A stretch of DNA of 64,000 bases from Candidatus Zixiibacteriota bacterium (GTDB taxonomy: Bacteria; Zixibacteria; MSB-5A5; GN15; FEB-12), in the NCBI GenBank assembly GCA_040756055.1, contig JBFLZR010000002.1, forward strand, positions 1-64,000, given 5' to 3'. The translations under genes and the position numbers were made by a program. The notes below the pieces were generated by a model that ran no database searches, was not told the DNA's origin, and worked only from the letters and a program-made list of their open reading frames with translations. Position 1 is the first letter of the stretch. Every line of letters begins with the position of its first letter. This document shows, piece by piece, positions 1 to 2,877 of this stretch.

Positions 1-20
1 CAGGATAATAATCCTGCCTT
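1..20 (-). terminator. Intrinsic terminator after peptide gene 1 (cut by window edge)
   Basis: This is the 5' arm, the AATA loop and six bases of the second arm of the hairpin that is seen complete at 215-238. It lies 38 bases past the stop of the peptide gene at 59-130 on the minus strand. The missing bases and the T-run would be left of the window. It is called by identity with the complete copy. Confidence 0.7.
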
Positions 21-58
21 GAAGCTTTCATCCGCCGGTCCTTAAGACCTCCGGCAAC

Positions 59-130
59 TTAGCCGTCGGTACCGTACTTGGACGGAGCGACGCGGGCTTC
101 CAGCTCTTCCAACTTCAGTTCGTATACCAT
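59..130 (-). CDS. Micropeptide gene 1, 23 aa (putative RiPP-like precursor)
   Basis: I do not recognise the family. The 23-codon frame opens MVYELKLEELEAR, then has Val14, then APSKYG, and ends TDG before TAA. A strong AGGAGG (138-143) lies 7 bases before the ATG. A second copy at 277-348 differs at three residues only (14, 21, 22), while several codons differ silently, so the frame itself appears conserved. The N-terminal half is acidic and helix-like, as in leader peptides. The tail is small and polar with Lys-Tyr-Gly. There is no signal peptide and no Cys. The genes directly follow an M50 protease/HlyD fusion with a PqqD-like N-terminus on the same strand, which suggests the peptide is its substrate (inference). 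It is not PqqA: the E-x-x-x-Y crosslink motif is absent. Confidence 0.8.
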   Translation of the reverse strand: MVYELKLEELEARVAPSKYGTDG

Positions 131-173
131 CTCAAAACCTCCTGAAACTGTTTATTTTCTGCTTTCACCAGTC

Positions 174-183
174 ATATTTGCCA
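174..183 (-). promoter_or_regulatory. Degenerate copy of CGTCAAATAT element before peptide gene 1
   Basis: The minus strand reads TGGCAAATAT, matching 8 of 10 positions of the element found exactly at 392-401 and 2858-2867. Its gene-proximal edge is 44 bases from the start codon, the same distance as in the other two. A promoter or regulator role is inferred from the fixed spacing. Confidence 0.4.
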
Positions 184-210
184 GGCCATTGAATTCTTAC
201 AGGCATTAAC

Positions 211-238
211 AAAAAAGGCAGGATAATAATCCTGCCTT
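211..238 (-). terminator. Intrinsic terminator between the two peptide genes
   Basis: On the minus strand AAGGCAGGAT, a four-base loop and ATCCTGCCTT form a perfect 10-bp stem, followed by a run of T (complement of 211-216). It lies 38 bases after the stop of the peptide gene at 277-348. It should end most transcripts before the second peptide gene, so each copy probably has its own promoter or depends on partial read-through. Confidence 0.9.
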
Positions 239-276
239 GAAGCTTTCATCCGCCGGTCCTTAAGACCGCTAGCGAC

Positions 277-348
277 TTAGCCGTTGGCGCCGTATTTGGA
301 CGGAGCGATGCGGGCTTCCAGCTCTTCTAACTTCAGTTCGTATACCAT
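277..348 (-). CDS. Micropeptide gene 2, 23 aa (putative RiPP-like precursor)
   Basis: Paralogue of the gene at 59-130. It has the same opening MVYELKLEELEAR, then Ile14, APSKYG and the ending ANG before TAA. The changes Val14Ile, Thr21Ala and Asp22Asn sit at the middle and the extreme C-terminus, with the block between them unchanged. The AGGAGG ribosome site lies at 356-361, 7 bases before the ATG. It is the first copy downstream of the M50/HlyD fusion gene (498-2813), 149 bases after its stop. As in many peptide systems, the precursor is duplicated and the processing gene is single. Product fate, modification and function are unknown. Confidence 0.82.
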   Translation of the reverse strand: MVYELKLEELEARIAPSKYGANG

Positions 349-391
349 CTCAAAACCTCCTGAAACTGTTTATTGTCTGCTTTCACTTTTG

Positions 392-401
392 ATATTTGAC
401 G
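392..401 (-). promoter_or_regulatory. CGTCAAATAT element before peptide gene 2
   Basis: This exact 10-base element recurs upstream of the M50/HlyD gene (2858-2867), and a degenerate copy is at 174-183. All three end 44-45 bases before a start codon. It may be part of a shared promoter (AAATAT as a -10-like box) or a regulator site; no convincing -35 box was seen. Confidence 0.45.
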
Positions 402-497
402 AAGCAGCAGATTCTTACCAGACGATCAGAATGTTTTTGAGACTTTCGCAAGAAGCTTAGAGGAGTAGTCAGACCTAAGATATTGATAGATAATGAA

Positions 498-2813
498 TTA
501 CCACAAGGACCAGAATTCGACCCTGATAATCGATGCTACTTTTCTCATCGCCAAGCCGAAAAGTGATTTCCGGCCGACCTCAATTTTGGCATATCCAGTC
601 ATGCCTTTGTGGAGCAGATTGTTCTCGTTGGCCACAACGGCGGAGACATGAAAACGGGCTTCACCGTCATCGGAGACTATCGCATCCTTTGGGATATGTG
701 CCACCGTACCTTCGAACAGGCGGTTGGTATAAGAACGCACCTTGAGTCTTACTTCCTGTCGGGGCTTGATCAGATCAATGTTGAAATCTGAGACTGGTAT
801 CAGGACCTCGACCTGACGATTCTCGGTCAGGCAGAGAACACACTCGTCATTTTGGTTCATCACCACGGTACCGGATATGGGAGCCAGGATAGACTGGTTG
901 TCCATCTGCGTCTGCAGGAAGTCTATATCGGCCAATTGCTTTTGAATCTCAGACTGGATCACTGCCTCTTCTTGCGGTTTTGGCGGGGATTTCAGCAATC
1001 GGACTCGCGCCTTCTTGTTTTCCAGTTCAGCTCTGGCTACTGCGGTAGCCGAATGTGCTGCCTCGAGTTGTTCTCTTGAAGCCAGATCCTTGGCCGACAA
1101 TTCCTTGAGACGATCTTCTTCGCTCAGCCGTTGTTCGTATATGGCGTTGGCGGCAGAAATCTCAGCCTGAGCTTCCTCGATTTCCTCTTTCTTTGGCGGC
1201 GATTTCAGCAGATCCAGGTCCTTTTGCAGTTTGTCCAGCGCTGATCTCGCGGCGACCAACTCGGTACTGACCTGGTTTGATATAAGCACGGCCACTGTGT
1301 CACCGGCGGCTACCTGCTGCCCGTCTCTGACATAGGGCACGAGATCAAGCGAAGCCATGTTGTCGGTGGAGGCCATCTGAAGGTAGCTGGATTTGCTCTG
1401 CGAGTCCTCTCCCCCGCGCCTGAACCGCTTTTCGAGCAGGCCAAAATCGTTAATGAGCAGGCTGAATTCCGCAATCGGGCGAACGACCACCTCGCCAGTC
1501 ACACGGTGAGGGAAGTCAATCACGAAGACCAGCAGGATGAAGGCTATGGTGATAATGATATATGTTATCAGACGGACGGGGCTTTTTAGAATTTGCTTCA
1601 TAAACTTGAAATGCTGGACAGTTCCCTTGCAAACGTTGACGATATTCGAGCGTAAAGTAAGAAATAAAATAACGGACAACAAGAATAATCCGGTCGCTCC
1701 CATTTTGGCGTGCAGAAACTCTCCCAAAAGGTAGAACAGATATGTCAGCAGGGAGACTGAATAGATAATCGCTGCGACAGCATAGACTAAGTATATCTTG
1801 CGCTCGCGTGTCGTAACGATGATTCTTCTAACCGGCCAGCTTAGCAGACGACGCTGGATGACATTCTTGAAATAGTCGAATGATTTTTGACGAAGGTTCG
1901 GGATTTCCAGCCAATCGGAAAGCATGTAGTAACCATCGAGCTTTATTAGCGGGTTGAAATTGAACAACTGGGTGACCCAGATGATAATAGCCACCAGGCG
2001 AGCCAGTTCGCTGACGAAGGACTCGGGAACGGTAACGCGCCAGACGAATACCGCCAGAGCAAGCAGCAGGAAACTGAAATAGGGACCGGCAAAGGTGACT
2101 GCCAGGCGATGCTTCTTGTCCCTGAACAGCCAGGCGTCGGAAACATCACAATAGAAGCAGGGCTGGAAATACAGCAGCAGCATGCCCATCTCCTTGACCT
2201 CGCCGCCATAATAGCGGCATATCAGTCCATGAGCGAATTCGTGCATTACGATAACGGTAAAAAAAGCCAGTACAATAGCGGCAACCGAACCGAGGTTGAA
2301 GACTTCGTAGAACCGGACAGAAAAGTAGGATGAGTTAGCCAGCAGTATGCCAATCGCGTAGACGATGAAAATGATTTCGATGGTAATCCAGAAGGGGCGA
2401 TGGAAAGGGCGGTAGAACTTCGTGACAACGTCAAGCATGGGACCGGGATTAAAGGCCTTGATTCTTACTGAAAGAAGGCGTGAGAAGAGCGAGTTTTTGT
2501 CATCGCGCCCGTAGCTCTTACGCGAAACAGCCTGTTCGGCCCGTTGGTCTTCCAGAAAGAACTTTTGCTCCAACAGTGTGACAAATTTCTGGATATTCTC
2601 TACGCCTATTTCCATGCCGAATTTGTCGCGGAAACGAATGTTGAGTTCGTCGTAAGAAGTTTTGCCATCAAGTTGACTAATCAGCCAGAACTCCGGCTCA
2701 CGAAGGCGGAAGTAGTTGCCTGTTATGGGGTCTTTAATATTGTAGACTGTCTGACCATCTATTTCAGCCGGTGCCGAAACGAGGTCAGTTCGTAGTTTGG
2801 CGTAAGTAGACAT
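498..2813 (-). CDS. PqqD/RRE-like + M50 site-2 protease + HlyD-type adaptor fusion
   Basis: 771 aa in three parts. Residues 1-95 resemble a PqqD/RRE peptide-recognition fold (REPEFWLISQLDGKTSYDEL). Residues about 135-440 are a polytopic M50 metalloprotease with zinc motif HEFAH at 191-195, the second motif NPLIKLDG at 287-294, and a Cys pair in PCFYCDVSDAW just after the active site. Residues about 440-771 form a HlyD-like arm: a lipoyl half-motif, a long coiled coil (about 540-640), a second half-motif (APISGTVV) and a beta-barrel region. Members would bind a peptide leader, cut it in the membrane and help its release; this is inferred from the domains and from YydH-type M50 proteases in epipeptide loci. 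The tandem micropeptide genes follow directly. No radical SAM or ABC partner is in the window. No clear Shine-Dalgarno precedes the ATG. Confidence 0.85.
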   Translation of the reverse strand: MSTYAKLRTDLVSAPAEIDGQTVYNIKDPITGNYFRLREPEFWLISQLDGKTSYDELNIRFRDKFGMEIGVENIQKFVTLLEQKFFLEDQRAEQAVSRKSYGRDDKNSLFSRLLSVRIKAFNPGPMLDVVTKFYRPFHRPFWITIEIIFIVYAIGILLANSSYFSVRFYEVFNLGSVAAIVLAFFTVIVMHEFAHGLICRYYGGEVKEMGMLLLYFQPCFYCDVSDAWLFRDKKHRLAVTFAGPYFSFLLLALAVFVWRVTVPESFVSELARLVAIIIWVTQLFNFNPLIKLDGYYMLSDWLEIPNLRQKSFDYFKNVIQRRLLSWPVRRIIVTTRERKIYLVYAVAAIIYSVSLLTYLFYLLGEFLHAKMGATGLFLLSVILFLTLRSNIVNVCKGTVQHFKFMKQILKSPVRLITYIIITIAFILLVFVIDFPHRVTGEVVVRPIAEFSLLINDFGLLEKRFRRGGEDSQSKSSYLQMASTDNMASLDLVPYVRDGQQVAAGDTVAVLISNQVSTELVAARSALDKLQKDLDLLKSPPKKEEIEEAQAEISAANAIYEQRLSEEDRLKELSAKDLASREQLEAAHSATAVARAELENKKARVRLLKSPPKPQEEAVIQSEIQKQLADIDFLQTQMDNQSILAPISGTVVMNQNDECVLCLTENRQVEVLIPVSDFNIDLIKPRQEVRLKVRSYTNRLFEGTVAHIPKDAIVSDDGEARFHVSAVVANENNLLHKGMTGYAKIEVGRKSLFGLAMRKVASIIRVEFWSLW

Positions 2814-2857
2814 GGGACCAATCAGGTTCAGGGCGTTGCCCGATGCTTTCTTGATAT

Positions 2858-2877
2858 ATATTTGACGTGGCCGTCAA
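2858..2877 (-). promoter_or_regulatory. Upstream element of the M50/HlyD gene: CGTCAAATAT plus inverted repeat
   Basis: 2858-2867 holds CGTCAAATAT (minus strand), identical to the element before peptide gene 2 and at the same distance from the start (45 versus 44). It overlaps a perfect inverted repeat TTGACG-TGGC-CGTCAA at 2862-2877, which could be a dimeric regulator site or include a -35 box. The region lies between the ClC stop and the M50 start, so the M50 gene can be transcribed independently. Confidence 0.45.

Follow-up and report, generated by a model that had tools for sequence, protein, structure and literature searches.

Among the peptide pathways described so far, the daptides come closest to the locus considered here. 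Daptide clusters contain a RiPP recognition element (RRE; RiPP, ribosomally synthesised and post-translationally modified peptide) fused to a site-2 protease, and their several short precursors share a conserved leader motif, ELExMEAP (PMC10036551). A step that the RRE of MpaB guides requires leucine at position -7 and methionine at -4 of that leader, and removal of the leader has been attributed to an RRE-dependent intramembrane peptidase, MpaP (PMC10036551); later daptide products are likewise cut directly after ELExxxxx (PMC12338566). The present work concerns the start of contig JBFLZR010000002.1 from a Candidatus Zixiibacteriota bacterium (assembly GCA_040756055.1; the window is the whole 64,000-nucleotide stretch analysed, positions 1 to 64,000), where two 23-codon micropeptide genes directly follow a gene that joins a PqqD-like RRE, an intramembrane M50 protease and a HlyD-type adaptor arm. 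It is likely that these genes form a leader-guided module for the processing and export of micropeptides, with a possible link to signalling, and the comparisons below suggest an undescribed peptide-export, possibly signalling, system related to the daptide pathway.

Both partners resemble their daptide counterparts. Like the daptide protease (MpaP/DapP; NF041824), the fusion carries an N-terminal RRE on an intramembrane M50 domain and is accompanied by several short precursors per locus, and the Zixibacterial leader motif ELEARIAP falls in register with the daptide leader, the two sharing positions -7, -6, -2 and -1. They differ at -4, where Arg or Lys stands in place of the daptide Met, and at -3, with Ile or Val instead of Glu; moreover, the fusion adds a HlyD/MacA arm, the tails beyond the leader are 6–9 residues long, the peptides are linked to a gene for a kinase with tetratricopeptide repeats (TPR), and the hosts are Gram-negative phyla. 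The distinct peptides have no Cys in their tails and none ends in the C-terminal Thr of daptides (the ends are GGQ, ANG, TD, AE and similar), and genes for an oxidative decarboxylase, an aminotransferase, a methyltransferase and an ABC exporter are not nearby. The clustered neighbourhoods of the window and its relatives contain none of the daptide DapB/C/D/M enzymes and no ABC exporter, the search being confined to these neighbourhoods. Identity with the daptides was rejected for want of the C-terminal Thr and of BCDM enzymes or an ABC exporter nearby.

An initial annotation, made from the letters of the window alone, had instead looked to epipeptide loci for a parallel. There, too, an M50 intramembrane protease acts on a short peptide (YydH/LiaK, NF058609), but the fusion scores weakly against that model (40 bits; cut-off 225), whereas the daptide_HExxH model NF041824 matches residues 29-387 at 219 bits (E 9e-65; below its curated cut-off of 300 bits); the peptide also differs, and no radical SAM enzyme occurs in the neighbourhoods. 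Epipeptide (YydFGHIJ) identity was rejected, since no radical SAM gene is conserved there, and by sequence comparison it is the daptide RRE-site-2-protease/leader module that stands nearest among known systems. The annotation was right that the locus has no radical SAM enzyme or ABC exporter, and none is conserved in the neighbourhoods of relatives either. A classical type I exporter was rejected because the locus has no ABC ATPase.

The Fusion Protein

The fusion, a single-copy gene in the window genome, lies just upstream of the micropeptide genes on the same strand, as first annotated, and is divided as follows.

498-2813, minus strand: RRE(PqqD-like)-M50 site-2 protease-HlyD fusion, an open reading frame (ORF) of 771 amino acids (Pfam/NCBIfam; AlphaFold model)
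2523-2801, minus strand: N-terminal RRE/PqqD-like domain, predicted, residues 5-97 (domain model and ortholog PF05402 matches)
1644-2444, minus strand: M50 intramembrane metalloprotease domain, residues ~124-390 (PF02163 above cut-off; NF041824)
2229-2243, minus strand: HEFAH zinc motif, residues 191-195 (H191, E192 and H195 invariant in 38 orthologs)
1932-1955, minus strand: NPLIKLDG, second zinc motif, residues 287-294 (N287, P288 and D293 invariant in 38 orthologs)
564-1517, minus strand: HlyD/MacA-type periplasmic adaptor arm, residues 433-750 (Foldseek and sequence profile)

Plain Pfam, NCBIfam and PDB sequence searches make no RRE call in the window copy, so orthologs and a structural model were needed to recognise the domain. 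PF05402 (PqqD) matches 25 of 38 orthologous fusion N-termini at E<=0.1. Modelled alone, the N-terminal domain (predicted local distance difference test, pLDDT, 86.7) is predicted to adopt the winged-helix RRE/PqqD fold, which agrees with the recognition domain of the initial annotation; its solved matches, at Z 8.2-10.5, are lasso B1 6jx3 (Z 10.5), TbiB1 5v1v (Z 10.1), TigE (Z 9.8), PqqD 5sxy (Z 8.2) and also 8vpo. The best-matching solved RREs are the ones crystallised with leader peptides.

Pfam detects the M50 domain at E 2e-6 and HlyD at E 1e-3, the latter slightly short of its cut-off. The HExxH and NPxxxxDG motifs are invariant in 38/38 orthologs, down to ~30% identity, and because all six motif residues listed above are unchanged the protease is very likely active. 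The C-terminal arm has the adaptor fold of MacA/HlyD tripartite efflux systems, MacA being its best match both by Foldseek (9qgy, E 2e-16; 3fpp, E 3e-15) and by sequence profile (E 8e-15), and it is kept in all fusion orthologs. Hydropathy marks seven hydrophobic membrane segments in the fusion, an odd number that would leave the adaptor arm across the membrane from the RRE. The whole-fusion AlphaFold model has a pLDDT of 84.5 and a predicted template modelling score of 0.53.

The Micropeptide Genes and Their Array

Window base 1 is a contig end, and the peptide array resumes at the start of a second contig of the same genome, C3 (locus L004 = G000:C3). Its features are these, a slash marking the predicted cut.

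277-348, minus strand: micropeptide gene 1, ORF of 23 amino acids whose start lies 150 nt past the fusion stop, MVYELKLEELEARIAP/SKYGANG
215-238, minus strand: intrinsic terminator of micropeptide gene 1, a perfect 10-pair stem, then a T-run
59-130, minus strand: micropeptide gene 2, ORF of 23 amino acids, MVYELKLEELEARVAP/SKYGTDG
1-197, minus strand: terminal repeat unit of this contig, inverted and 97% identical with respect to the start of contig C3 (L004 1-197), on which the array goes on for 2-3 more copies
L004 68-139, 354-422 and 617-685: further peptide copies on contig C3

The two window peptides, MVYELKLEELEARIAPSKYGANG (277-348) and MVYELKLEELEARVAPSKYGTDG (59-130), differ solely at residues 14, 21 and 22, and each gene has a CAGGAGG ribosome site followed, after 7 nt, by ATG. 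The initial annotation had proposed both as genuine genes with strong ribosome sites and individual terminators; genes and ribosome sites stand up to comparison, and the terminator holds for gene 1, whereas the stem after gene 2 is truncated by the window edge. The annotation had also wondered about partners to the left of the window. What lies there is more peptide copies and, beyond them on the other strand, a histidine kinase, but no exporter. The first C3 copy (68-139) resembles window copy 2, with 5-6 differences in 197 bp, and given this near-identity the array in the window genome is put at 4-5 peptide copies or more. The last two C3 copies have the tails SKYGAG and SKYGTG.

A degenerate leader pattern run over the whole 3.3-Mb genome has 5 matches, all at the array, against 1 for a reversed-pattern control. 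The ratio of nonsynonymous to synonymous differences (pN/pS) of the peptide codons comes to 0.15 for the window genome by itself and to 0.26 when the genus is taken as a whole (overall range 0.15-0.29), so that the frame is conserved, as the annotation had expected, and comparison of codons places it under purifying selection. A translated regulatory leader (an attenuator or upstream ORF whose amino acids are irrelevant) would likewise appear as a short ORF with a strong ribosome site and its own terminator, but the peptide genes lie downstream of the fusion, with their own terminator and no same-strand gene behind them, and the selection on their codons, together with a motif conserved across phyla, already contradicts this explanation, which we regard as most improbable.

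Pairing of Fusion and Peptide across the Phylum

Peptide homologues were sought with a 25-position profile, whose matches run from ~22 to 61 bits, and tabulated against the fusion in 97 Candidatus Zixiibacteriota genomes, mostly metagenome assemblies and some of them fragmented. The fusion is present in 77 of these; one match (G101) spans the HlyD part alone and was scored as fusion-negative. Fusion and peptide occur together in 76 genomes and are both missing from 19, with one genome holding the fusion alone and one the peptide alone (Fisher 6e-18); outside families f1-f3 the counts are 39 with both, 10 with neither and 1+1 discordant (p 9e-9), both p-values ignoring shared ancestry. Joint absence is seen in several separate families, including the two single-contig genomes G095 and G096. 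The earlier idea that the two are substrate and processor is supported by this co-occurrence.

In families f1-f3 a homologous ORF of 19-32 amino acids lies ~150-1,000 nt 3' of the fusion on the same strand, and in the arrays of the window's genus a peptide may lie up to ~1,800 nt away. Several families have the two genes unlinked, for example ~22 kb apart in f4 and on separate contigs in f7 and f10-f15. Most genomes encode one peptide copy and those of the window's genus 4-7.

L(-7), E(-6) and P(-1) are the same in all of 55 distinct peptides; 52 of these have A(-2), 53 have Arg or Lys at -4, and every one has Ile, Val or Leu at -3. The leader consensus can be written YxLx[I/V]ExLE[A/E][R/K][I/V]AP, after which comes a tail of 6-9 residues, G-x-S-x-G-G-Q in most of the phylum and SKYGANG in the window; peptide length and stop position are near-constant over the phylum. 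In family f15 (L138, L139) the peptide gene stands next to a series of genes for surface-type proteins predicted to be secreted (clusters 18, 40 and 56), possibly cargo or targets.

The Kinase-TPR Neighbour

At most peptide loci the peptide gene runs with its 3' end towards the gene of a soluble Ser/Thr kinase bearing multiple TPR units, the two being convergent (54 such pairs, median gap 50.5 nt, range 4-507), and beyond the kinase-TPR gene lies a GAF-PAS histidine kinase gene. The kinase is generally absent where the fusion/peptide pair is absent, with three exceptions (G069, G014, G027), and gene content across the genomes points to it as a third, mostly co-inherited partner. It is not obligatory, given its retention in those three pair-less genomes and its loss in the window's genus. 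The suggestion that the fusion may act alone needs amending, since the convergent kinase-TPR gene is conserved and largely co-inherited, even though the window's genus has lost it. The window genome lacks the kinase-TPR gene and has an expanded peptide array; the histidine kinase on the array side (L004 790-1995) has no GAF domain and is 401 rather than ~600 amino acids long.

It is from the kinase-TPR linkage that a signal role is suggested for the peptide, which is plausible, if speculative. A short processed peptide tied genetically to a cytosolic TPR protein recalls RRNPP quorum sensing, from which the present case, seen through gene linkage, differs in that the TPRs sit on a Ser/Thr kinase and not on a DNA-binding domain and that the genes for the peptide and the putative receptor are convergent.

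The same linkage admits a different interpretation, in which the peptide regulates or partners the kinase-TPR/histidine-kinase pair and the fusion merely degrades or clears it, by regulated intramembrane proteolysis and with no export. In families without linkage between fusion and peptide, the peptide indeed remains beside the kinase-TPR gene, and the kinase-TPR protein, having no membrane segment by hydropathy, could meet it in the cytosol. The HlyD arm, conserved in all orthologs, would then be idle, however; genus g1, that of the window, lost the kinase while its array grew to 4-7 copies under purifying selection, and other phyla have the leader ORF beside the fusion without the kinase. 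We consider this interpretation quite improbable.

Proposed Mechanism

In the processing and export module that we favour, the peptide would be a short precursor made up of an N-terminal leader and a 6-9-residue tail. Because ELEARIAP superposes on the daptide leader at -7, -6, -2 and -1, we infer binding of the leader by the cytosolic RRE of the fusion, cleavage behind IAP at the intramembrane M50 site, and export of the tail. The tail (SKYGANG in the window) would emerge beyond the inner membrane, in the periplasm, where the MacA/HlyD-type arm could hand it to an outer-membrane TolC-family channel and so out of the cell; several TolC-family genes are found elsewhere in the window genome. More speculatively, the product may act as a conserved signal tied to the kinase-TPR protein and the neighbouring GAF-PAS histidine kinase.

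Several observations sit uneasily with this proposal. No cognate inner-membrane transporter lies near the fusion in the window or on C3, and none is conserved in relatives, so the locus offers a lone HlyD arm no evident means of energising export. The kinase-TPR gene is absent from the window's genus, which has the pair, and the three exceptional genomes keep the kinase without fusion and peptide. Some of the co-absence in f1 could come from missing contigs, the genes being adjacent there, and for about half of the fusions outside the Zixibacteria no leader ORF could be detected in the adjoining 1.5 kb. The case also rests on comparison for every member of the module.

If the proposal holds, a conserved fusion that databases name solely by its parts gains a candidate substrate with a predicted cut site, together with a possible responder, and a whole uncultured phylum may use a short secreted peptide. 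The RRE-site-2-protease logic of daptides would extend to Gram-negative phyla, with a built-in adaptor arm. The open literature searched yielded no relevant paper on the leader motif.

Other candidate components were set aside. DUF3467 adjoins the fusion in f4 and in proteobacterial loci, yet it occurs in 89/97 Zixibacteria, fusion-negative ones included, and is unspecific. As for a dedicated SecA2-like motor, only SecA of housekeeping size (~1000 amino acids) was found in Zixibacteria. In family f18, what was considered as a MacB-type ABC exporter next to the fusion is two genes that look molybdopterin-type (MoeA/MobA-like, by sequence reading), and the neighbouring ClC channel, FAD oxidoreductase, Xaa-Pro peptidase and acetyl-CoA carboxylase genes are family-variable or housekeeping.

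Relatives beyond the Phylum

Relatives of the fusion occur in Acidobacteria, Rokubacteria, Planctomycetes, Verrucomicrobia, Eisenbacteria, Aminicenantes, Armatimonadetes, Gemmatimonadetes and others. When the profile built from Zixibacterial peptides alone was applied unchanged, at a threshold of >=12 bits, a leader was found within 1.5 kb upstream of the fusion at 25/52 non-Zixibacterial loci, every one on the same strand; the counts were 2/48 for downstream and 1/46 for more distant sequence, with no match in shuffled controls. Short homologous ORFs beside other copies of the fusion, which the initial annotation had anticipated, thus occur throughout the phylum and beyond it. Those of other phyla, Acidobacteria, Rokubacteria and Planctomycetes among them, read LExxIEELEERIAP or near variants (LE-x-[R/K]-[I/V]-A-P), then run into Gly/Ser/Asn/His-rich tails, and are often ~50-140 residues long.

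These loci bear on the question of whether the system is a complete RiPP pathway, its tail modified before cleavage by enzymes encoded elsewhere, as in daptides. RRE domains usually serve RiPP enzymes, and at Acidobacterial, Eisenbacterial and related loci the leader ORF and fusion are accompanied by a FemAB-type ligase and by families that lack annotation. The clustered Zixibacterial neighbourhoods, on the other hand, contain no conserved modification gene, and the tails have neither the daptide C-terminal Thr nor Cys; we think a complete pathway unlikely. At five loci from Verrucomicrobia, Eisenbacteria, Rokubacteria and Acidobacteria (L162, L171, L190, L192, L202) an unannotated family of ~340 amino acids ('YLIGRPTLKQFLRFV') follows the fusion; in some of them a second family lacking annotation (~233 amino acids) and a FemAB-type ligase also adjoin the leader ORF, and these may be modified-peptide clusters. 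In Aminicenantes (L167 7902-8285), four tandem near-identical peptides with LEKRIAPTRAAIAMG lie directly downstream of the fusion on the opposite strand, an array like that of the window and independent of it.

The same PqqD-M50-HlyD class is found at six proteobacterial plasmid loci, and at each of the six a large protein has LE[P/S]R in its N-terminus, in corresponding register (LEPRVLLSAD, LEPRMLFDGA, LEPRVLLNAD, LESRQLFDGA, LEPRLLLAAD and LEPRFMFDAA); in Azospirillum this protein is encoded second in the cluster. These LEPR-XLL (NF012209)/DUF4347 giant exoprotein loci differ from the Zixibacterial ones in that the cargo is often thousands of residues long and in variously adding a C-truncated SecA paralog, DUF3467, an extra HlyD and TolC. 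The LEPR-XLL model (NCBIfam) matches one of two proteobacterial large proteins tested and, at E<=1, neither window peptide, so membership of the micropeptides in NF012209 was rejected. The adjacency of giant LE[P/S]R proteins to fusion relatives might suggest that the micropeptides are decayed ends of larger exported LEPR-type surface proteins, now functionless; near-constant length and stop position, purifying selection and profile matches of ~22-61 bits to a 25-residue model already contradict this, and it has very little to recommend it.

A broader possibility, which we put forward tentatively, is a general unrecognised export route in which an N-terminal LE-x-[R/K] leader is read by the RRE-M50-HlyD fusion and the cargo ranges from the 6-residue signals of Zixibacteria to giant proteins, daptides being an offshoot. 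If so, the Gly/Ser/Asn-rich proteins of 50-140 residues would be cargo in Acidobacteria, Rokubacteria and Planctomycetes, and the giant LEPR-type surface proteins would be proteobacterial cargo with a dedicated SecA-like motor. This would offer a route to explain the LEPR-type giant exoproteins, for whose secretion pathway the open literature searched gave no description.

Two minor observations concern the plasmids. The SecA-like proteins clustered with the fusion and giant LEPR-type proteins at L221, L226 and L240 are shorter than SecA (638-660 amino acids in two tested), and one record is mis-annotated 'prepilin peptidase'. On an Alisedimentitalea plasmid (L241 1226-1555), LEPRLLLAAD is encoded in frame just upstream of a giant calcium-binding protein, whose annotated start looks, from the sequence, too late.

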